In this document: in pieces, positions 21,506 to 37,868 of the stretch
Layout of the letters: each line of letters begins with the position of its first letter
Numbering within the stretch: the first letter of the stretch is position 1
Assembly: GCA_902801205.1 (NCBI GenBank)
Contig: CADCHE010000005.1
Span: forward strand, 1-64,000
From: an uncultured Bacteroidia bacterium
GTDB taxonomy: Bacteria; Bacteroidota; Bacteroidia; Bacteroidales; UBA932
Reading direction: 5' to 3'
Length of the DNA: 64,000 bases
Notes under the pieces: generated by a model
The model's database searches: none
Seen by the model: only the letters and a program-made list of their open reading frames with translations
What the model was told of the DNA's origin: nothing
Program-made: the position numbers and the translations under genes

Positions 21506-22954
21506 TTACTCACCATAACCCGGATTCTGCTTCAGGTTCTCGTTGAGGTCACGCTCACGTTTGGGGATCGGAAGCGCCCACTTGTAGCTCGGGAACTCGA
21601 CATCGAGATTCATCGTGCAAAGGGCATACTCGTCGGCACTGCGTGTCAGGGATTTGCCCCAGCGGGCCATGTCGAAGAAGTAGTGGCCTTCCCAGGCGAG
21701 TTCCTTGCGGCGCTCGTTCTGGATGTCGAGGTTACCCACAGACGTGTAGGCAGCAGCACCGCGGTTGGAGGTGATGGTGTTCATGTCGGAGATGGCCGAA
21801 GCACCGGGAACCGTCGCACCGTGGACCAGCGCCTCGGCACGGTTGAGGTACATTTCGGAAAGGCGGAGGATCACGACGTTGTTGCAGTCGGGAGCGGCAT
21901 TGTCGCCCTTGCCGGCGTACTTGCTCGTCCACCAGCAGCCGGATTCGCCGGCCTCATCGGTGCGGAAGGTCTTCAGGCGGACATCGCCTTCAGCGTACAT
22001 GGCCATCAGGGAAGGGGCCACCTGCGGATCGCCGTAGCCGACCGGGCTGGTCATGTAAGAGATATCCTCCCAGGAACCGTAGGTGCCGTTGGTACGCTTG
22101 CCGTACATCTCGAAGATCACCTCGCCGGAGCCCTTGTCGGCCGTCCAGACGGTCGGATACTCCTCGGCGGTCCACATCTTGAACTTGCCGGAGTTGATGA
22201 CCTTCGTCGCATAGTCGGCGCTCTTCTGCCACTCGCCCATGTAGAGGTAGATGCGGCTCAGGAGGGCCTGGATGGTATAAATGTTCACGGCAGCGAGCGG
22301 ATCGGCGATACCGGAACGAACATAGGCGGGATCGATGATCTTCTCGGCTTCCAGCAGGTCGGCAACCGCATTCTCGTAAACCGTCTTCACGGTCTCACGC
22401 TCGGGCTTACCGGCCGGATCGGTATGGTAGACATACGGGATACCCAGGCTCTCAGGCTGAGAGGTATAAGGCTGGCCGAAGAGAAGGACCGTCTCGAAGT
22501 GGGCGAACGCACGGAGGAAGAGGCACTCGGCCTTGAGGTTGTTCAGATCCTGCGTGGTGACGCTGCTGGTCTCTTTGCCCTCGAGGTTGTCGATGACATT
22601 GTTGGCCATTGCCACGGTGTAATAGCAATAGGCCCACATCGTGGTGTTCGTATTGTCCTTGGTGTAGTTCCAGGTGTAACCCTGGGTGCTGCGGTTGGAG
22701 TTCTTGTAGTTGGACTTCACACCGTTACCGGAACGCATCTCGGACTCGATGACCCAGTCGGAACCATACCAGCCCGTCGAGGAGATGTAATAGTACGCCC
22801 CGGCCGTCGCCTTGTTGAGGCCGTCATACGAGGCCATCGTCAATTCCGTACTCTGCGAAAGCACCGGCGCCTTGGTAAGGAAATCCTTTCCGCAACCCGT
22901 GGCAAATGCGAGGAGCGCCACGGCCGTCATTGCATATAATATCGTTCTTTTCAT
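21506..22954 (-). CDS. SusD/RagB-family nutrient-binding lipoprotein
   Basis: Surface lipoprotein that closes the SusC barrel and binds its ligand. The 482-residue protein starts MKRTILYAMTAVALLAFATGC, followed by GKDFLTKAPVLS. It has the TPR-rich SusD body (LKAECLFLRAFAHFETVLLFGQPY) and the usual late block LRLSEMYLNRAEALVHG, ERRKELAWEGHYFFDMARWG, ending LNENLKQNPGYGE. It follows susC directly; the ATG at 22966, almost touching the susC stop, is an alternative start. Together they form the outer-membrane uptake complex of this locus. The partner set lacks any glycoside hydrolase gene, so the substrate cannot be read from context and might be a peptide or glycan. Confidence 0.95.
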   Translation of the reverse strand: MKRTILYAMTAVALLAFATGCGKDFLTKAPVLSQSTELTMASYDGLNKATAGAYYYISSTGWYGSDWVIESEMRSGNGVKSNYKNSNRSTQGYTWNYTKDNTNTTMWAYCYYTVAMANNVIDNLEGKETSSVTTQDLNNLKAECLFLRAFAHFETVLLFGQPYTSQPESLGIPYVYHTDPAGKPERETVKTVYENAVADLLEAEKIIDPAYVRSGIADPLAAVNIYTIQALLSRIYLYMGEWQKSADYATKVINSGKFKMWTAEEYPTVWTADKGSGEVIFEMYGKRTNGTYGSWEDISYMTSPVGYGDPQVAPSLMAMYAEGDVRLKTFRTDEAGESGCWWTSKYAGKGDNAAPDCNNVVILRLSEMYLNRAEALVHGATVPGASAISDMNTITSNRGAAAYTSVGNLDIQNERRKELAWEGHYFFDMARWGKSLTRSADEYALCTMNLDVEFPSYKWALPIPKRERDLNENLKQNPGYGE

Positions 22955-22967
22955 AACTGTCGTCATT

Positions 22968-25900
22968 TTAGAAGGAGACTTCGACACCGCCGATCAGGGA
23001 CTTGACCATGGAGTTGGCACCCTGCTGGACATTACCGAGGATACCGACTTCCGGATCAAGCGCATCGAGATGGTGGAACGTGTACGGGTTGAGCGCGCTC
23101 ACGTAAACACGCACGCCATTGAAGAATTTGGTGCTGCTCAGGAGTTTCTCCGGAAGGCTGTACGAAAGGGTGACGTCCTTGATACGGAGATAGCTGCCGT
23201 CCTGGAGGAAGCGGGTGGAATAACCGACGAAATAACGTCCAGGCTGTCCGGCCACCGGCTTCGGGGAGACGCCCGTATCGCCGGGTTTCTTCCAGTAGTT
23301 CAGCGACAGGGTCGTCGCGTTCGTCGTCATGTCGTAACCATCGTCAATGTAACCGTTGGTGATGAGCACCTTCTGGCCCACCGCATAGTCGAACCAAGCG
23401 GAGAGGTTGAATCCCTTCCAGGAGAGACTGGTGTTGAAACCACCCGTCGCCTTGGGCTCCGGAGAACCGGTGTAGATGTACTGGGCGCGGTTCACGTCGG
23501 AAGTGAGCTTGCCGTCGGCCGTCCACCACAGACCGTCACCGGTCGAGGGGTTGACGCCGTACCAGTCACGCAGATAGAAGGTGTACAGACTGCGGTCCTT
23601 GACGATACGGGTCGCCGTGGTGTCGTCGATACGGGAATCGGAAGCGACCAGGTATTCGCTATCGCCGATATCCAGCACCTTGGAGCGGTTGAAAGCGATG
23701 TTGAAGCCAGCGGTCCACAGCCAGTCACTGTTCTGGATGATCGTGCCGTCGATCTGGAATTCCAGACCGCGGTTGCGCAAGGAACCGATGTTCATGAAGT
23801 TGCTGCCGAAACCGGTGGTGTAGGGAACTTGCTTGGAGAGCAGCATGTTGTCGGTGAGACGGTTGTAGTAGTCGACGGATGCCGTGATGCGATTGTCGAA
23901 GAAACCGAAGTCCAGACCGACGTTCCAGGTCTTGTTGAGCTCCCAGCTCAGGTCCGGATTGGCCGCACGGGAAGGAGCGAGACCGACGAAGTTGTTGTAC
24001 GTCACCGTCGCATACACGCCGTAGGCGCGGTAGGCGGAGATGTTGTTGTTACCGTTGACACCGTAGGAGGCACGCAGCTTGAGCTGGTTCACATACGGGG
24101 TGAAAGCCTGGAAGAAGTTCTCCTTCGCGATGTTCCAGGAACCGCCCACGGACCAGAAGGTACCCCAGCGCTTGTTCTCGCCGAAGACGGAGGAACCGTC
24201 GTGACGGATGGAAGAGGAGAAGAAGTACTTGTTGGCGTAGTTGTAGTTGAGCACGCCGAAGAAGGAGAGCAGCGAGGTCTCGTTGAAGCTGTAAGCACCT
24301 TCATCCTGCGCACCGGTGGAAGTCGTCGGGTAAGGAATCGCCGAATCGACGTTCGGGGAGCTCAGGCCGAGGAGTTCATACGAGTCGATGAACGCCTCCT
24401 GGCCGGCCAGCACGTGGAGGTTGTGGTCGCCCCAGGCGTCGTCGTACGCCGCCGTGTTGGAGGTGGTGTAGCGGTTGTCGCGGCTCCAGTAGGTGAAGAG
24501 GGCGGACGTACCCTTGTGGGTGTACGGATCCCAGTACTGGCGGGAGTAGTCGGCCAGCACCTCGGCGCCGTTCGTGGTCTTGAAGGTCAGTTGCTCGATG
24601 GGCTTCCACTCGAGGAAGAACGTTCCGTTGAAGCGGTAGTCCTCATCGTTGTACGTCTGGTATTCGGCGATGGCCCGCGGGTTGGTGTCGGAGTTTTCGG
24701 GGATGTTCATGTTCCACGTCCCGTCCGGATTGCGCAGCGGCGTCCAGGGCTTGATCCCCCACATCGCAAACTGCGGGTTGGAATAGTAGAGGTCACCCAT
24801 CTGGCCGGAGTGCGAATCCGCGTAGCTCACGTTGACCTTGGCGCCGGCCTGCAGGGTGCGGGTCAGGCGGTAGTCGGCGTTGACACGGGCGGTGATACGC
24901 TTGTAGTCCTGGCCGTAGAAGACACCCTGGTTGTCATGGAAGGCGAGGGAGGAATAGAAGGATCCCTTGTCGTTGCCGCCCTGAGCGTTGACTTCATATT
25001 CCTGCAGCTTGCCCAGACGGGTAAGTTCCTTGTACCAGTTGGTCGTCCCGTTCTGGAGCAGGGAAGTCGGGAAATAATACTGCGAGGAAGGATCGTCGGG
25101 GTTGAAGCCGGCGTTGATGGCGCAGACCCTCCGGTATTCGAGGAGCTCGCTGCCCGTGAGCGGGCGGAGGTTCCGGTCGTTGATGAGCTGCGACATACCG
25201 TATTTGGCGCGGGCCGTGAATTTGGCCTTGCCCACCTTGCCGCTCTTGGTCGTCACGAGGATGACGCCGTTCGCGGCGCGGGAGCCGTAGACCGAAGCCG
25301 CAGCCGCATCCTTCAGGATGGTGATGGACTCGATGTCGTTCGGGTTGATGAAGGTGGAGGAGGAACCGCCGCCCACACCCACGTTGGAAAGCTGGCGGAA
25401 GTCTTCCGCCATCACGGGGATGCCGTCGACGACCCAGAGGGGCTCGTTGCCGGCGTTGATGGAGGAGGTACCACGGACACGGATCGTGGAAGTGGAACCG
25501 GGCTGGCCGGATCCGGAGGTGATGGACACACCGGCCATCTTACCGGAGAGCATCTTATCGACAGAAGTCGCCGGGACCGAAGCGAGCTGCTCGTTCTTCA
25601 CGGAAGAGACGCTACCCGTGTTGGCCTCGCGGCGGACCGTTCCGTAAGCGACGACGATGGCGTCCTCGAGGAACTGTGCGTCAGGTTTCAACGCGATGTT
25701 GATCTGCGTCCTCCCGTCGATCGCGACTTCCTGCGATTCATACGACATCAAACTGACGACGAGGACGCCGTTCCCAGGCACGGTGATCTTGAAGTTACCG
25801 AGGTTGTCGGTCTGGGTGTACGTGGAAGTACTCCCCTTCAACAGCACGGTCGCGTCGTACAACGGCTCGCCATTGGAGGCATCCGTCACGGTTCCCGAGA

Positions 25901-25976
25901 CCGTCCGCGTCTGAGCAAATGCCGCGCCCATGCCAAGCACGAAGCACAGCAGCAAAGAGAATAACTTTTTACTCAT
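22968..25976 (-). CDS. SusC/RagA-family TonB-linked outer-membrane transporter
   Basis: The 1002-residue protein starts with a signal peptide (MSKKLFSLLLCFVLGMGAAFAQ). A carboxypeptidase-like regulatory domain follows (VSGTVTDASNGEPLYDATVL), then the plug with the SusC signature (IRVRGTSSINAGNEPLWVVDG, SITILKDAAAASVYGSRAAN), and a 22-strand barrel ending GGVEVSF. It imports ligands handed over by the SusD lipoprotein, using TonB energy. There is no N-terminal STN domain, so it does not itself signal to an anti-sigma factor. It is the first gene of a four-gene operon. The 254-bp upstream gap is AT-rich, with no canonical TAnnTTTG box but a cluster of ATCAATT motifs. Confidence 0.96.
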   Translation of the reverse strand: MSKKLFSLLLCFVLGMGAAFAQTRTVSGTVTDASNGEPLYDATVLLKGSTSTYTQTDNLGNFKITVPGNGVLVVSLMSYESQEVAIDGRTQINIALKPDAQFLEDAIVVAYGTVRREANTGSVSSVKNEQLASVPATSVDKMLSGKMAGVSITSGSGQPGSTSTIRVRGTSSINAGNEPLWVVDGIPVMAEDFRQLSNVGVGGGSSSTFINPNDIESITILKDAAAASVYGSRAANGVILVTTKSGKVGKAKFTARAKYGMSQLINDRNLRPLTGSELLEYRRVCAINAGFNPDDPSSQYYFPTSLLQNGTTNWYKELTRLGKLQEYEVNAQGGNDKGSFYSSLAFHDNQGVFYGQDYKRITARVNADYRLTRTLQAGAKVNVSYADSHSGQMGDLYYSNPQFAMWGIKPWTPLRNPDGTWNMNIPENSDTNPRAIAEYQTYNDEDYRFNGTFFLEWKPIEQLTFKTTNGAEVLADYSRQYWDPYTHKGTSALFTYWSRDNRYTTSNTAAYDDAWGDHNLHVLAGQEAFIDSYELLGLSSPNVDSAIPYPTTSTGAQDEGAYSFNETSLLSFFGVLNYNYANKYFFSSSIRHDGSSVFGENKRWGTFWSVGGSWNIAKENFFQAFTPYVNQLKLRASYGVNGNNNISAYRAYGVYATVTYNNFVGLAPSRAANPDLSWELNKTWNVGLDFGFFDNRITASVDYYNRLTDNMLLSKQVPYTTGFGSNFMNIGSLRNRGLEFQIDGTIIQNSDWLWTAGFNIAFNRSKVLDIGDSEYLVASDSRIDDTTATRIVKDRSLYTFYLRDWYGVNPSTGDGLWWTADGKLTSDVNRAQYIYTGSPEPKATGGFNTSLSWKGFNLSAWFDYAVGQKVLITNGYIDDGYDMTTNATTLSLNYWKKPGDTGVSPKPVAGQPGRYFVGYSTRFLQDGSYLRIKDVTLSYSLPEKLLSSTKFFNGVRVYVSALNPYTFHHLDALDPEVGILGNVQQGANSMVKSLIGGVEVSF

Positions 25977-26230: not shown

Positions 26231-27325
26231 TTACTGTCCGCCCAATATTTTGTTCTGTTCGTCTACCGAAGCCTCGTGAATGGCAGTGAAAACGGCCGTC
26301 ACGAACGATTCTGACAGTCCGTACTCCGCCCCCCGGCGGATCATCCCGGCAAGCAGCGAATCCCACCGCGAAGCCTGTACGATGGCGATGTTGTGCGACT
26401 TCTTGAACTGGCCGATCTTGCGCGACACTTCCATCCGGGAACGCAGGGCGTCCAGCAGGTTCTCGTCGATGACGTCGATACGCGCGCGGAGTTGCTCGAT
26501 GTTCTCGTTGTACTCCTTGTCGTCGGTATCCTTGCGGCGGACCGTCAGGCTCTCCAGCAGGACCTTCAGGTCTTCGGGAAGGATCTGCTGCCCGGCATCG
26601 GAAAGGGCGCAGGAGGGGTCGCAGTGCGACTCGATCATCAGCCCCTCGAGCCCCAGGTCCATCGCCCGCTGTGACAACGGGAGCAAGTGCTCGCGCGCAC
26701 CGCCCATGTGGCTCGGATCCACGAAGAAGGGGACGTCCGGGTACCGGGTGCGCAACTCGACCGCCAGCTGCCAGCCGGGCGCGTTGCGGTACGGCAGGCG
26801 CTCCGTCGTCGAGAAGCCGCGGTGGATGACACCGAGTTTGCGCAGGCCTGCACGGCCCAGCCGCTCCAGGGCACCGATCCAGAGGTCGAGGTCGGGATTG
26901 ACGGGGTTCTTGACAAGCACGGGGATGTCGGTGTCCTGCAGGGCATCCGCGATCTCCTGCACCAGGAAGGGGTTCGCCGTGGTGCGCGCCCCGATCCATA
27001 CCATGTCGACACCGTACTTGATGCACTCGAAGACGTGCTTTTCGCAGGCCACCTCCGTGCAGACTTTCATGCCGAACTCCTGCTTCACCTTCTGGAGCCA
27101 CTTCAGCCCTTTCGTGCCCACGCCCTCGAAGGAGCCCGGGTGGGTGCGCGGCTTCCAGATGCCGGCGCGGAAGACGTGGATGCCGAAGGAGGCGAGCCCC
27201 TTCGCCGTCATCATCATCTGCAATTCAGATTCAGCGCTGCAGGGACCGGCGATGACAAGCGGGGGGATGCGCTCGTCGAAAAAGCCCCACTGCGATACGG
27301 GAATAATGTCCAATGTCCGTTCCAT
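26231..27325 (-). CDS. Bifunctional DAHP synthase / chorismate mutase
   Basis: Catalyses the first shikimate-pathway step (PEP plus erythrose 4-phosphate to DAHP) and the conversion of chorismate to prephenate. Residues 1-265 are the KDPG-like DAHP synthase: PLVIAGPCSAESELQM, FRAGIWKPRTHPGSFEGVG, GARTTANPFLVQE, FVDPSHMGG. The remaining 100 residues are an AroQ-type mutase helix bundle (NIEQLRARIDVIDENLLDAL, then SRMEVSRKIGQFKK). This fusion order is typical of Bacteroidota. It is the last gene of the phe/tyr operon. The C-terminal mutase may also provide feedback control by prephenate, as known for similar fusions. The start is clear from the conserved N-terminus. Confidence 0.96.
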   Translation of the reverse strand: MERTLDIIPVSQWGFFDERIPPLVIAGPCSAESELQMMMTAKGLASFGIHVFRAGIWKPRTHPGSFEGVGTKGLKWLQKVKQEFGMKVCTEVACEKHVFECIKYGVDMVWIGARTTANPFLVQEIADALQDTDIPVLVKNPVNPDLDLWIGALERLGRAGLRKLGVIHRGFSTTERLPYRNAPGWQLAVELRTRYPDVPFFVDPSHMGGAREHLLPLSQRAMDLGLEGLMIESHCDPSCALSDAGQQILPEDLKVLLESLTVRRKDTDDKEYNENIEQLRARIDVIDENLLDALRSRMEVSRKIGQFKKSHNIAIVQASRWDSLLAGMIRRGAEYGLSESFVTAVFTAIHEASVDEQNKILGGQ

Positions 27326-27345: not shown

Positions 27346-28233
27346 TTATCGGATGATTTTCTTGATGCGGTTGGCGTCGCGGATGAGCCGGTCCGTGCCC
27401 GCCTCGTCATAGTCCGCGATGGCTTGCCGGAACAGCTGCATCTTTTCGAGGTACGTATCGATCACATGCAGGACGTTGTCGCGGTTCTGCATCAGGATCG
27501 GCACCCACATCTCGGGGGAACTCTTCGCCAGGCGGACCGTGGAAGAAAAACCGCCGGAGGCCAGGTCGAAGATGTGCTTCTCGTCGCGTTCCTTCTCCAG
27601 GACCGTGAGGGCGAGGGCGAAGGATGTCACGTGGGAGATGTGCGAGACATAGGCCGTGTGGATGTCATGCTGGTCGGCGGCCATGTAGATCGGGCGCATG
27701 CCCAGCGTATCATAGAGGCGTTCCGCAAGGGCGACGGCCGCCGGGTCGGACTCCTCCGCATTGGCGAAGATGCACGCCCGCGAATCGAAGAGGTTCGGCT
27801 GGGCCGCCCACGGGCCGCTGTACTCGGTGCCGGCCATCGGATGCGTCGCCACGTAACGCCGGCGCAGCGGATGGTAATGCACGCACCGGACGATCTGCCC
27901 CTTGGTCGAGCAGGTGTCCAGCACCGTCTTGGAGCGAGCCTGCGTCTCCGCCAGGCGGTCGAGGATCCGCGGCAGGAGCGCTACGGCGGCGCCCACGGGC
28001 ACGGCCAGGACGATGACGTCGCTCCGGTCGATGCAGTCTTCCAGGGAGACGACCTCGTCGACGAGCCCGATCTTTTCCGCGGCGGATGCGTTTACGCAGT
28101 CCGCTTCCACGCCCAGGATCCGCGCAGCGAAACCGCGGCGCTTCAAGTCGATGGCCATCGAGCCGCCGATAAGGCCGAGACCGATGATACCGACGGTTTG
28201 CTGCGGCTCACTCTGTATCTTGTTCTGTTCCAT
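27346..28233 (-). CDS. tyrA: Prephenate dehydrogenase
   Basis: Oxidatively decarboxylates prephenate to 4-hydroxyphenylpyruvate for tyrosine synthesis. The 295-residue protein has an N-terminal NAD(P)-binding Rossmann motif (VGIIGLGLIGGSMAIDLKRR), then DVIVLAVPVGAAVALL and TVLDTCSTKGQIV. The TyrA signature HPMAGTEYSGPWAA carries the catalytic His region, and the helical C-terminal domain includes HISHVTSFALALTVLE. No chorismate mutase or ACT domain is attached, consistent with the mutase being fused to DAHP synthase next door. It lies 20 bp upstream of that gene and 12 bp after the aminotransferase gene. Confidence 0.95.
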   Translation of the reverse strand: MEQNKIQSEPQQTVGIIGLGLIGGSMAIDLKRRGFAARILGVEADCVNASAAEKIGLVDEVVSLEDCIDRSDVIVLAVPVGAAVALLPRILDRLAETQARSKTVLDTCSTKGQIVRCVHYHPLRRRYVATHPMAGTEYSGPWAAQPNLFDSRACIFANAEESDPAAVALAERLYDTLGMRPIYMAADQHDIHTAYVSHISHVTSFALALTVLEKERDEKHIFDLASGGFSSTVRLAKSSPEMWVPILMQNRDNVLHVIDTYLEKMQLFRQAIADYDEAGTDRLIRDANRIKKIIR

Positions 28234-28245
28234 ATATTTCCTGTT

Positions 28246-29451
28246 CTATAAATGCAACTTCGAGACGATCCGTTCCCGCGCCTCCTGCAAGACGGGGACA
28301 CGCGCGCAGAGGGAGATGCGGATATACGACCGGCCGTTCTTTCCGAAGATGAATCCCGGAGTGATGAAGACGCCCGCCTCCCCGAGGATGCGGTCACTGA
28401 GCACCTCGCCCGCGGAACGCTCCCCGTCGCCCGCTCCAGGCACCCGTCCCCACAGGAACAGGCCGGCGGAATGGGCGTCGTAACGGACGCCGAGCGCGTC
28501 GAAGATCCGGCCGGCTTCGACCCGGCGCCGAGCATACTCCCGGTTGAGGGCGTCGAACCACTCCGGTCCCTGGGACAGCGCCTCCACCGCCGCAAGCTGC
28601 AACGGCTTGAACATGCCCGAATCCATCTGGCTCTTCACCTTCAACACCTCGGCGACCAGTTCCTTCGCCCCGGCAACCATGCCGATGCGCCAGCCTGACA
28701 TGTTGTGCGCCTTGCTGAGCGAGTTGAGTTCCAACACACAGCCGGAGGCCCCTTGCGCCGCCAGGATCGATCCCGGCTCCGGATTGAGGATGAAGGAATA
28801 GGGATTGTCGTTGACGACGAGGATGCCGTGGTCGCGCGCGAAGGCGGCCAGGCGGTCGTACAGCTGCGGGCTCGCCTTGGCGCCGGTAGGCATGTGCGGA
28901 TAGTTGGTCCACATCAGCTTGACGCCACGGAGGTCCATCCGCTCCAGCGCATCGAAATCCGGCCACCAGCCGTTCTCCTCCCGCAGGTCGTAGGGGATGA
29001 TTTCGGCCTCCACCAGCCGCGACGCGGAGGAATAGGTAGGATACCCGGGGTCGGGCACCAGGACCTTGTCTCCGGGATCGACGAAGGCCATGGAGATCAG
29101 CAGGATGCCCTCCTTGGAGCCCACGAGGGGCTGAATCTCGCAGGACGGGTCGAGGGTGACGCCGTAGTAACGGGCGTACCACCGGGCGAAGGCCTCGCGC
29201 AGGGCGGGCAGGCCGACATAGCTCTGGTAGGCATGGTTGCCGGGTTCGCGGGCGGAGGCCACGAGGGCCTCGATGGCGGGCTGCGGCGGCATGCCGTCGG
29301 GGGCGCCGATGCCCAGGTTGATCACCCGGGGCTCGCCGCGGCCTTGCCGGGCGGCATTCAGCGCATCGATCTCGCGCAGTTTCCGCGAGAAGTAATATTC
29401 CCGGACCGAAGCGGTCCGGCGGGCAGGCTGTATGATCATCTTGTCAGTCAT
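28246..29451 (-). CDS. Class I/II PLP-dependent aminotransferase, probably aromatic
   Basis: Expected to transaminate phenylpyruvate and 4-hydroxyphenylpyruvate to Phe and Tyr, given its place between pheA and tyrA. Fold-type I motifs are clear: INLGIGAPDGMPPQPAIEAL, YQSYVGLPALREAFARWY, NYPHMPTGAKAS, and the PLP-lysine site LNSLSKAHNMSGWRIG, with the distal Arg in SYIRISLC. Length is about 400 residues. The subfamily resembles LL-DAP aminotransferase-like enzymes found in Bacteroidota phe/tyr operons, so a side role in other transaminations is possible. The start at 29451 overlaps the end of pheA by 8 bp; an ATG at 29457 is in frame too. Confidence 0.85.
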   Translation of the reverse strand: MTDKMIIQPARRTASVREYYFSRKLREIDALNAARQGRGEPRVINLGIGAPDGMPPQPAIEALVASAREPGNHAYQSYVGLPALREAFARWYARYYGVTLDPSCEIQPLVGSKEGILLISMAFVDPGDKVLVPDPGYPTYSSASRLVEAEIIPYDLREENGWWPDFDALERMDLRGVKLMWTNYPHMPTGAKASPQLYDRLAAFARDHGILVVNDNPYSFILNPEPGSILAAQGASGCVLELNSLSKAHNMSGWRIGMVAGAKELVAEVLKVKSQMDSGMFKPLQLAAVEALSQGPEWFDALNREYARRRVEAGRIFDALGVRYDAHSAGLFLWGRVPGAGDGERSAGEVLSDRILGEAGVFITPGFIFGKNGRSYIRISLCARVPVLQEARERIVSKLHL

Positions 29452-30286
29452 TTTCATTTTCGCACCGTTTGTATTCTCCCAGGATCCGCAGGTCGGCCAT
29501 CAGGGGCTTCACGGCCCGCAGCGCCTGGCGGTAGCGGTCGTAGGCGCCGAACCGGATGTCGGCATAAAAGAAATACTGCCACTGGACACCGGGGATGGGC
29601 AGCGACTGGATCCGGGTGAGGTTCATGTCGTAGAACGACAGGATGGTGAGCACCTGGGCGAGCGAACCGGGCTTGTGGGGCAGCGTGAAACAGAGCGACG
29701 CCTTGTCGATGGCGCGGCGGGGCGTTTCGACGGCCTCGTCGAGGATGAGGAAGCGGGTGAAATTCTGCTTGTACGTCTCGATGCTCCGGGCGAGGATCTC
29801 GAGGCCGAAGCGTTCCGCCGCCAGGACGGACGCCACGGCGCCGACGCCCCGGAGGCCTTCGCGGGCGACCTGCGCCGCGCTTCCGGCGGTGTCTTCCGAC
29901 TCCACCATCGTGATCCACGGGCACTGCTGCTCGAAGTACTGCCGCGTCTGGTTGATGGCCATGTAATGCGTCCGCACTTCGCGGATGTCTTCCAGCCGCT
30001 GGCCGGGCAGGGCCATCAGGTTCTGGTGGATAGGGATGTAGATCTCGCCCGTGATCCGGTACGGATGGGCGCGCAGCAACTCGAAATTGGGCAGCAGTCC
30101 GCCGGAGATCGTGTTCTCGATCGCCATCACCGCAGCATCGGCCCGGCCATCGTCCATCGCACGGAACAGATCGGCGAAGGTTCCGCATTCCACCACATCG
30201 ACCTGCTCGTCACGGGCCGCATAGAACCGCTGCGCCGCCTCCTCGTGGAAACTGCCCCGGTATCCTTGAATCGCAATCCTTTTCAT
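29444..30286 (-). CDS. pheA: Prephenate dehydratase
   Basis: Converts prephenate to phenylpyruvate. The 280-residue protein has the PDT domain (RIAIQGYRGSFHEEAAQRFY, AVMAIENTISGGLLPNFELL, and the TRF motif in QNFTRFLIL) followed by a C-terminal ACT domain (ASLCFTLPHKPGSLAQVLTI, then LTRIQSLPIPG), which is the phenylalanine-binding regulatory site. I set the start at MKRIAIQG (30286). The longer reading from 30355 would place the terminator hairpin at 30306-30330 inside the gene. It is the first structural gene of the phe/tyr operon, preceded by a leader peptide and terminator that look like an attenuator. Confidence 0.95.
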   Translation of the reverse strand: MKRIAIQGYRGSFHEEAAQRFYAARDEQVDVVECGTFADLFRAMDDGRADAAVMAIENTISGGLLPNFELLRAHPYRITGEIYIPIHQNLMALPGQRLEDIREVRTHYMAINQTRQYFEQQCPWITMVESEDTAGSAAQVAREGLRGVGAVASVLAAERFGLEILARSIETYKQNFTRFLILDEAVETPRRAIDKASLCFTLPHKPGSLAQVLTILSFYDMNLTRIQSLPIPGVQWQYFFYADIRFGAYDRYRQALRAVKPLMADLRILGEYKRCENEND

Positions 30287-30298
30287 CTTCTGTCCATC

Positions 30299-30330
30299 AA
30301 AAAAAGCTGCCCGGCAAAATCCCGGACAGC
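30299..30330 (-). terminator. Attenuator terminator of the phe/tyr operon
   Basis: On the minus strand GCTGTCCGG and CCGGGCAGC pair around GATTTTG, followed by seven Ts (complement of 30299-30305), 13 bp before the pheA ATG. The 5' arm can instead pair with CCGGACGGC in the leader (about 30373-30381) through nine contiguous pairs with one G-U, giving a mutually exclusive antiterminator. If it is not an attenuator, it would simply be the terminator of pyrH-frr. Confidence 0.75.
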
Positions 30331-30361
30331 CCTGTTTCGCAATCGCATGGTTCACGCCATA

Positions 30362-30442
30362 TTACTGCACGCCGTCCGGCCTATCATCTCCGAGATAATA
30401 GAACCCAAAATAGAACGCGCAGTAAAATCGTGTACCAGGCAT
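30362..30442 (-). CDS. Phe/Tyr-rich leader peptide of the phe/tyr operon (26 aa)
   Basis: A 26-codon open frame starts seven bases after a good -7 box and ends with TAA 75 bp before pheA. Residues 6-16 read FYCAFYFGFYY: four Phe and four Tyr in eleven codons, exactly the two amino acids whose synthesis the operon serves. That composition is the hallmark of attenuation leader peptides such as those of pheA and trp operons. The Tyr-Tyr codons are followed by a small hairpin (UAUUAUCU / GAGAUGAUA region), then by a segment able to pair with the terminator's 5' arm. A ribosome stalled on these codons would leave that segment free; one that reaches the stop codon would cover it. The mechanism is inferred, but the peptide is directly visible. 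Confidence 0.8.
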   Translation of the reverse strand: MPGTRFYCAFYFGFYYLGDDRPDGVQ

Positions 30443-30449
30443 AACACTG

Positions 30450-30457
30450 CAAATATA
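30450..30457 (-). promoter_or_regulatory. -7 box of the phe/tyr operon
   Basis: TATATTTG on the minus strand. The expected transcription start lies two to three bases before the leader-peptide ATG, so the leader peptide would be translated from a nearly leaderless mRNA. The box lies 22 bp past the frr stop codon. Confidence 0.65.
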
Positions 30458-30479
30458 GGAAAATATCCGAAAGGTGGAA

Positions 30480-31049
30480 CTATACCGTCATAATTTCTTT
30501 TTCCTTGGCGGCAACCATCTCGTCCACTTTCTTGGTGTGGGTGTCGGTCACCTTCTGGACCTCGGTCTCCCCTTCTCCGCGGACATCTTCCGAGAAATCA
30601 CCGGCCTTTTCGGCCTTCTTCAGTGCATCGACGGCGTCGCGGCGGCAGTTGCGGATGGCGATCTTGGTATTCTCGCCGGCCGCCTTCGCCTTCTTGATCA
30701 ACTCCTTGCGGCGTTCCTCCGTAAGCGGCGGGATGGGGCAGCGGATGACCTCGCCGTTGTTCTGCGGGGTGAAGCCCAGGTTCGCGGCCATGATGGCCTT
30801 CTCGATCACGGGAATCATGCTCCGCTCCCACGGCTGGATCGCGATGGTCCGTGCGTCGGGCGTCGTGACGGAAGCGACCTGCGGGACCGGCGTCGCGGTA
30901 CCGTAATAGTCCACCGTCACATTGTTGAGGATGGAAGGATTGGCCTTGCCGACCCGATAGGTCTTGAGGTCCTCCTCCAGGAAGGCGACAGCATCCATCA
31001 TCTTGTCGGAAGCGTTGCCCAGGATTTCTTTGGCTTTCTCTGTCAACAT
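30480..31049 (-). CDS. frr: Ribosome recycling factor
   Basis: Works with EF-G to split post-termination ribosomes. The 189-residue length is close to the usual 185, and the sequence carries the family landmarks: KTYRVGKANPSILNNVTVDYYG, ATPVPQVASVTTPDARTIAI, QPWERSMIPVIEKAIMAANL, and LTEERRKELIKKAKAAGE. The two-domain triple-helix/beta layout is intact. It follows pyrH by 23 bp, a common bacterial pairing (pyrH-frr). I see no separate terminator before the phe/tyr promoter at 30450-30457. Read-through from frr would therefore pass through the attenuator hairpin at 30306-30330, which may serve both transcripts. Confidence 0.97.
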   Translation of the reverse strand: MLTEKAKEILGNASDKMMDAVAFLEEDLKTYRVGKANPSILNNVTVDYYGTATPVPQVASVTTPDARTIAIQPWERSMIPVIEKAIMAANLGFTPQNNGEVIRCPIPPLTEERRKELIKKAKAAGENTKIAIRNCRRDAVDALKKAEKAGDFSEDVRGEGETEVQKVTDTHTKKVDEMVAAKEKEIMTV

Positions 31050-37778: not shown

Positions 37779-37786
37779 CTTTTCGT

Positions 37787-37868
37787 GCCCGAGGTGGGAA
37801 TCGAACCCACACGTCTGTTAGGACACAGGATTTTGAGTCCAGCGCGTCTACCATTCCGCCACTCGGGC
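37787..37868 (-). tRNA. tRNA-Leu (anticodon CAA)
   Basis: The 82-nt gene folds as a class II tRNA. The acceptor arms GCCCGAG and CTCGGGC pair perfectly. The D-arm contains GGCGGAATGGTAGACGC and the anticodon loop is CTCAAAA with CAA at positions 34-36. A variable arm lies around TGTCCTAACAGACG, and the T-arm is GTGGG TTCGATT CCCAC. One pair of the anticodon stem appears to be a U-U mismatch. CCA is not encoded, so it must be added after transcription. A -7 box lies just upstream and a terminator just downstream, so it is transcribed alone. Confidence 0.95.

Follow-up and report, generated by a model that had tools for sequence, protein, structure and literature searches.

Among the closest known counterparts of the element considered here is the pheL-pheA leader of Escherichia coli, in which a leader peptide rich in the product of the operon is combined with RNA segments capable of the alternative pairings 1:2, 2:3 and 3:4 and with an intrinsic terminator ahead of pheA. 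This leader senses phenylalanine in front of pheA alone, with tyrosine control being exerted by protein. The leader studied here, which lies 5' of pheA in an uncultured member of the class Bacteroidia, is laid out in a comparable manner, with a peptide, the 1:2, 2:3 and 3:4 helices and a terminator before pheA; unlike pheL, it carries mixed Phe and Tyr codons, precedes an operon for both amino acids and matches no leader family of Rfam. Sensing of more than one amino acid is a feature of the ilv and thr leaders, and the trpL leader peptide of Sinorhizobium is reportedly leaderless, so that both multi-amino-acid sensing and a start near the 5' end have precedents in principle, albeit in other operons and phyla. 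Shine-Dalgarno signals are rarely used in Bacteroidota. A 2010 treatment of attenuation in bacteria by Lopatovskaya et al. may already list cases from Bacteroidetes.

A survey from the same year recorded no demonstrated leader-peptide system beyond Proteobacteria and Actinobacteria save the atypical ermC, and itself added one such system in Firmicutes (PMC2965389). Within the phylum, a 2021 transcriptome of Flavobacterium psychrophilum offers strong clues to leader-peptide attenuation before amino-acid operons, and describes a structured element 5' of pheA that is kept in other genera of Flavobacteriaceae and has no Rfam match (PMC9723704). This element shares with the studied leader the gene, the phylum and a structured 5' region; however, the main text of that paper presents it without a Phe/Tyr peptide, competing helices or a spread beyond the family (PMC9723704). 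The map of Bacteroides thetaiotaomicron likewise contains short frames reminiscent of leader peptides (PMC7366714). The Bacteroid-trp RNA motif (Rfam RF01692), tabulated in 2010 (PMC2864571), is also a candidate cis-regulatory RNA of Bacteroidetes, whose name points to a trp operon; it differs in that the studied window has no match to the motif. A full-text literature search, largely confined to non-subscription papers, turned up no account of a leader combining Phe and Tyr codons in Bacteroidia. What may be new here is the predicted dual Phe and Tyr specificity and the wide spread in Bacteroidia, ribosome-mediated transcription attenuation itself being known.

Organization of the leader locus

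Coordinates refer to the window, i.e., the whole 64,000-nucleotide stretch of DNA that was analysed, and the features of the locus lie on its minus strand. In the direction of transcription, frr (ending at 30480) is followed by a TATATTTG box, the leader frame, the terminator, its T-tract and pheA (ATG at 30286). The box (30450..30457) corresponds to the Bacteroidota-type -7 promoter consensus TAnnTTTG (PMC9723704) and, as read from the sequence, lies 7 nt 5' of the leader ATG. The leader peptide frame of 26 codons (30362..30442), with its ATG at 30442 and a TAA ending at 30362, encodes MPGTRFYCAFYFGFYYLGDDRPDGVQ, whose residues 6-16 read FYCAFYFGFYY; the eight candidate regulatory codons F6, Y7, F10, Y11, F12, F14, Y15 and Y16 span 30395..30427, and the frame is devoid of Trp codons. 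The terminator consists of a 5' arm, GCTGTCCGG (segment 3, 30322..30330), a 3' arm, CCGGGCAGC (segment 4, 30306..30314), and a tract of seven T (30299..30305), with 96% of the stem cells paired across 28 genus rows. The frame with its Phe/Tyr run, the -7 box, the terminator with its seven Ts and the start of pheA at 30286 had all been named in a first-pass annotation of this DNA, and are read directly from the sequence. In F. psychrophilum 5.5% of mRNAs are leaderless (PMC9723704), and about 3.7% of the 5' UTRs of B. thetaiotaomicron are shorter than 10 nt (PMC7366714); given these low fractions, the near-leaderless start predicted here would, if confirmed, be of a minority type.

Between the Phe/Tyr codons and the terminator lies segment 2, the antiterminator arm CCGGACGGC (30371..30379), which begins 15 nt past the last Tyr codon and has segment 3 as its alternative partner. 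A pairing of such a segment with the terminator 5' arm had been proposed earlier and holds, whereas its position is 30379-30371 rather than the 30373-30381 then given. Segment 1, TTACTGCGCG (30416..30425), is the 5' arm of a protector or pause helix on the basis of the predicted fold and a cognate-pairing test, and the 3' arm of this helix, CGTGCAGTAA (30362..30371), has base 30371 in common with segment 2. The last Phe/Tyr codons and those right before segment 2 fold into an apical hairpin (30381..30401), which is predicted in the single fold and by RNAalifold.

Of 594 ATG-initiated frames with 10-40 codons found on the two strands of the window, the leader frame is the sole one with at least 6 Phe/Tyr per 12 residues; it reaches 8 in 12 residues, and the next-best frames reach 5. 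Dinucleotide shuffles of the 400 nt 5' of pheA (row L111, the studied locus) never attained 8 in 100 trials, with a mean of 1.9. A chance frame, considered as a candidate explanation, is ruled out by this window-wide count together with the upstream shuffles. Additionally, the leader RNA folds with z = -6.44 relative to dinucleotide shuffles, none of 200 shuffles being as stable. At gathering score, a scan of the window with Rfam release 15 found no family at the attenuator, be it an amino-acid leader, Bacteroid-trp or a T-box, and its sole match was a tRNA (37786-37868); the best match in a permissive scan of 30150-30650 was RcsR1, at 17.5 bits versus the 60 needed (E 0.46).

As a side observation, an in-frame GTG 5' of pheA opens a 303-residue frame (29444-30355, minus strand) that crosses the terminator, and gene callers could pick it as a wrong start of pheA.

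The operon and its products

The gene order is frr, leader, pheA, aminotransferase, tyrA and DAHP synthase-chorismate mutase fusion, the last four genes overlapping or being separated from their neighbours by at most 20 bases. The prephenate dehydratase pheA (29444..30286, minus) matches Pfam PDT above cut-off, with NCBIfam PRK11898.1 at 204.5 bits missing its cut-off of 219. The class I/II aminotransferase (28246..29457, minus) matches Pfam Aminotran_1_2 and no NCBIfam model above cut-off among the 25 of 64 matches listed; an aromatic role would follow from its operon context. The prephenate dehydrogenase tyrA (27346..28233, minus) is recognized by NCBIfam PRK08507.1 above cut-off and by Pfam PDH_N/PDH_C, and the fusion gene (26231..27325, minus) by Pfam DAHP_synth_1 and CM_2. 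These assignments for pheA, tyrA and the fusion bear out the earlier proposal that the operon serves synthesis of the very amino acids encoded in the leader. Further, the TrpE N-terminal domain found no match in the source genome (98.7% complete), so that the amino acids made by way of this operon would be chiefly Phe and Tyr; by the same token, the organism may be unable to make tryptophan. On the 3' side of the operon lies a gene pair (21506-25976, minus) that we take to resemble outer-membrane SusC/SusD.

Competing RNA helices

For the pairing tests, leaders sharing their first 80 bases were merged, which reduced 140 leaders to 135. The pairing of segment 2 with segment 3 beats 95% of shuffles in 96 of these 135 distinct leaders, and does not in the other 39. 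Comparison between lineages, across 92 distinct types, gives a score of 19.05 for cognate segments as against 11.75 for foreign ones, a result matched by 0 of 5000 permutations. A segment's own partner ranks among the top three of all partners in just 33 of the 92 types, a modest figure that probably reflects GC-rich cores common to many lineages. Within the genus no covariation of segments 2 and 3 was detected (124 of 2000 permutations, and a second test no better than shuffles), nor any in the terminator beyond what shuffles give, because segment 3 is nearly invariant there.

The protector helix, in which the start of the frame pairs with the bases right after segment 2, had been missed in the first-pass annotation; it completes the classical set, of which the annotation had recognized the other two helices. 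For this helix, cognate pairing exceeds non-cognate pairing among genus leaders as well as among those from beyond the genus (0 of 2000 permutations in each case), while at single loci it beats 95% of shuffles in 8/27 genus loci and 36/103 others. The apical hairpin corresponds to columns 45-66 of the RNAalifold consensus, with changes on both sides at three pairs.

The fold of the leader was additionally computed with constraints for the position of the ribosome, a check proposed in the earlier annotation; these folds and the masking geometry rest on an assumed ribosome footprint. When the ribosome occupies the last Tyr codons and the terminator 3' arm has yet to be transcribed, the predicted structure is the antiterminator. 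When it sits at the stop codon, again with the 3' arm unmade, segment 2 is masked and no antiterminator forms; in the absence of a ribosome, the RNA folds into the protector helix and the antiterminator is likewise absent. Both of the latter states allow the terminator to form subsequently. Together with the 15-nt gap, and under the same assumed footprint, these folds agree with the previous suggestion that the Tyr codons are placed such that stalling there would free the segment, with a ribosome at the stop codon masking it. As isolated duplexes the two alternatives are equal in strength (antiterminator -16.4, terminator -16.5 kcal/mol), and at equilibrium the terminator is the favored fold of the full-length RNA for each of the ribosome states examined. 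Hence, the choice of antitermination must be kinetic and made during transcription. Known attenuators likewise decide during transcription.

Proposed mechanism

The locus thus displays a frame rich in codons for the operon's products with its own start and stop, an intrinsic terminator before the first gene, an antiterminator that shares the terminator 5' arm (in the between-lineage comparison), a protector helix (in the leaders taken as a set), and control codons placed such that a stalled ribosome frees segment 2 and one at the stop masks it. The reading favored here, to which we assign a probability of about 0.88, is ribosome-mediated transcription attenuation: the element would sense charged tRNA-Phe and tRNA-Tyr jointly and thereby control the pheA-aminotransferase-tyrA-DAHP synthase/chorismate mutase operon. 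The first-pass annotation's term "translational attenuator" is accordingly replaced, while its central proposal, that a stall on the Phe/Tyr codons selects the antiterminator over the terminator, fits the anatomy, the constrained folds and, most strongly, the comparative evidence. From the anatomy, conservation, between-lineage covariation of the helices, spacing and footprint-constrained folds we infer the regulation itself, including where transcription starts, that the frame is translated, that ribosomes stall in it and that the outcome depends on Phe and Tyr.

Under this model transcription would begin a few bases 5' of the leader ATG. Given an ample supply of both amino acids, the ribosome would reach the TAA at 30362 and cover segment 2, leaving segment 3 to pair with segment 4, upon which RNA polymerase would stop at 30299. 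A shortage of charged Phe- or Tyr-tRNA would instead stall the ribosome on one of the eight Phe/Tyr codons, where it would cover segment 1, break the protector helix and free segment 2; the latter could then pair with segment 3, and transcription would continue into pheA. If the frame is not translated at all, the protector helix would form and the terminator would be expected to win.

Control codons, spacing and alternative readings

By a script that searched from the last Phe/Tyr codon to the terminator, the distance from that codon to segment 2 is 3-20 nt in 131 of 133 rows (median 11; standard deviation 3.3 in these 131), whereas the distance from segment 2 to the stop codon has a standard deviation of 12, the position of the stop wandering. 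A spacing tied to the Phe/Tyr codons is what a sensor of stall position would need. In the genus alignment, codons 11, 12, 14, 15 and 16 are nearly always T-initial, with variation at the third base and exchange between F and Y, a pattern that suggests selection on a translated Phe/Tyr message. These two observations bear on a quite different reading, namely that the element is a plain terminator with a small structured RNA, or a riboswitch or protein-bound leader, the Phe/Tyr frame being a by-product of T-richness. T-rich runs do yield Phe codons; however, shuffles with the same dinucleotides fail to produce such frames, Phe/Tyr identity is kept while third bases vary and the two residues exchange, the spacing of the segments tracks these codons and not the stop, and no Rfam family appears at gathering score, or with E below 0.4 in the permissive scan. 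A by-product of this kind is hence hardly credible.

It could also be that the same architecture truly senses only tyrosine, or one amino acid, with the other residues as passengers. All 28 genus rows have Tyr (TAT or TAC) at codon 15, the second-last of the run; one genus leader that does precede pheA (L035) has a single Phe and seven Tyr; and in two leaders from which pheA is gone (L211 and L244, see below) only one Phe is left, next to three or four Tyr. Against this, all 134 distinct leaders have at least one Phe and at least one Tyr, with totals of 666 F and 501 Y; both residues occur among the last five Phe/Tyr codons in 130 of the 134; and 94 leaders end their run with a Phe codon, 40 with a Tyr codon. 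A single-residue sensor is therefore considered unlikely. A further alternative is that the element is an inactive relic in the source species, with pheA being read from frr or an internal promoter. Several relatives indeed have pheA close behind frr and no leader, and one (L249) retains the terminator part alone; yet in the window every element is intact, from the promoter-like box and the frame to segments 1-4 and the T-tract, which makes such decay in this species very improbable.

Distribution among Bacteroidia

Loci of pheA were drawn from 61 genomes, i.e., the source and 60 relatives, of which 43 had a match, from named public genomes (80 loci) and from a phylum-wide set in which 251 of 296 genomes matched. 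The 400 nt 5' of pheA were searched for a Phe/Tyr-rich ATG frame against 100 shuffles per sequence, the strict test requiring at least 5 F/Y in 12 residues and no more than 5 of the 100 shuffles doing as well; four loci with short upstream sequence (L028, L070, L076, L080) were left out. In the genus, 14 of 23 loci (L001-L022 and L024, the last being counted as a genus member) pass, as do all six loci from other families of the order (L023, L025-L027, L029, L030) and 58 of 77 named loci, which partly repeat other loci (at least L043, L052 and L065). One genus locus, L012, passed the strict test through a frame that lies by chance within another gene, and is counted as a miss.

The phylum search used genomes at least 90% complete, and 58 of its 64 same-class rows plus 2 same-order rows were examined; six same-class rows of family f29 with a divergent pheA stand outside this 60-locus count. 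A leader passes in 55 of these 60 loci, with four lacking such a frame and one failing the shuffle test. Outside the class, 5 of 29 loci carry a leader (L115, L173-L176), these 29 of 184 rows being mostly the best-scoring and hence no random sample. The predicted Phe/Tyr leader is thus common across the class Bacteroidia, its carriers including Paraprevotella xylaniphila (L105), Phocaeicola (L109), Parabacteroides (L097) and three Candidatus Cryptobacteroides (L037, L049, L051), and its wide distribution in the class is probably ancestral. Phe/Tyr-rich frames before pheA in related genomes, which the earlier annotation had proposed to look for, are consequently widespread, and its remark that such a leader is unusual in a member of Bacteroidota does not hold.

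The five carriers outside the class have a pheA that scores high for their group, so that a leader and a class-like pheA occur together; the two were perhaps co-transferred horizontally.

By script, a terminator is present in every leader row that passes the frame test, and a segment able to pair with the terminator 5' arm was found, under permissive settings, in 139 of 140 leader rows, L018 having none by the criteria used. The script-called terminators or segments look spurious in L012, L071, L075 and L171. Of the 28 genus leaders, 19 have a TATATTTG-type box 7-11 nt 5' of their ATG, which sustains for these the near-leaderless layout noted earlier; in eight others the gap is 18-23 nt, and one has no box match. 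A covariance model of the genus leader, run with Infernal's stricter filters, gave a single match per genome in 25 of the 61 genomes. Three of the 25 matches do not precede pheA (G020, G377 and G367, with G369 outside this check): the first is a leader without pheA, the second a His leader and the third a Trp leader.

Loss of the leader and its separation from pheA

A tree of pheA, built without L012, L043 and L052, comprises 45 in-group rows, of which 16 have no leader; this pattern requires at least 2 changes, and parsimony gives 10. Eight of the 16 leaderless rows have pheA starting at most 34 nt past the end of the frr match, which leaves no space for a leader, and six have no frr match in the retrieved sequence. 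The tree reads as repeated loss of the putative leader. Orthologous loci lacking the frame, which the first-pass annotation had named as grounds for rejecting an attenuator, do therefore occur, but as repeated losses they leave the mechanism standing.

The aminotransferase was matched in 69 of 121 genomes, and its upstream region was inspected in 57 of them (30 loci and 27 stretches), and additionally in L211, a match of the covariance model. In 50 of the 57, pheA lies 5' of the aminotransferase and in 7 it is absent there, L211 being the eighth without it. Two of these loci, from similar genomes, have lost pheA and carry a Tyr-heavy leader before the aminotransferase (1 Phe and 3 Tyr in L211, 1 Phe and 4 Tyr in L244). 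The genome of L244 does have a pheA, at another site and lacking a leader; a search of the other genome of the pair, which is 80% complete, yielded none. Codon choice in the leader might accordingly follow operon content, a reading that is suggestive only, since a single lineage is concerned and L035, with pheA in place, also has a single Phe. At L249 both the frame and pheA are gone, and segment 2 and the terminator are kept between frr and the aminotransferase (in the last 130 bases); this is a putative fossil of the attenuator. The remaining loci with pheA absent 5' of the aminotransferase (L261, L263, L264, L265, L269) have no leader, one of them (L263) retaining a truncated start of pheA.

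Implications and other leader-peptide candidates

Taken jointly, these patterns raise the proposition that a dual Phe/Tyr attenuator was ancestral to Bacteroidia, formed part of a wider set of His, Ile/Leu/Val and Trp leaders, and had its control codons re-tuned with operon content; we regard the chances of this combined scenario as evenly balanced. If true, it would imply close coupling of the leading ribosome to RNA polymerase, over leader regions if no further, in a phylum that makes little use of Shine-Dalgarno signals. A literature search on this point found no test of transcription-translation coupling in Bacteroidota; in Bacillus subtilis this coupling is reported to be loose (PMC10931766). 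Since attenuation needs a ribosome close behind RNA polymerase, the element offers a ready reporter of coupling in Bacteroidia, for which genomes without the element, or with a relocated pheA, would provide natural controls. For gut and environmental Bacteroidia, it would further supply a concrete mechanism by which the synthesis of aromatic amino acids is controlled, a matter that the literature consulted treats in outline only, and it could constitute a new Rfam family.

Other candidates of this kind occur in the source genome itself. A frame encoding MVFNAHIHHHHPSPER precedes hisG (L201, contig C10, base 1202 of the reverse complement) and is followed by a hairpin with a weak T-tract, making the locus a probable His attenuator. 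Another, encoding MTYTSIIVLSLLVLVLDRRGLGRF, precedes ilvD (L206:1251, plus strand, contig C8) and is followed by a strong terminator, which makes it a probable Ile/Leu/Val attenuator. Leader-peptide control hence looks general in the source organism. The two weakest matches of the covariance model point to genus relatives in the same manner: one is a His-rich leader frame with a terminator (L212:1948-1989, minus) before a hisG-like gene resembling the hisG of the source, and the other is a frame with two adjacent Trp codons and a terminator, MRIAEFIFWWRLSE (L213:1015-1059, minus), whose 3' neighbour is presumably trpB-like, judging by its first residues.
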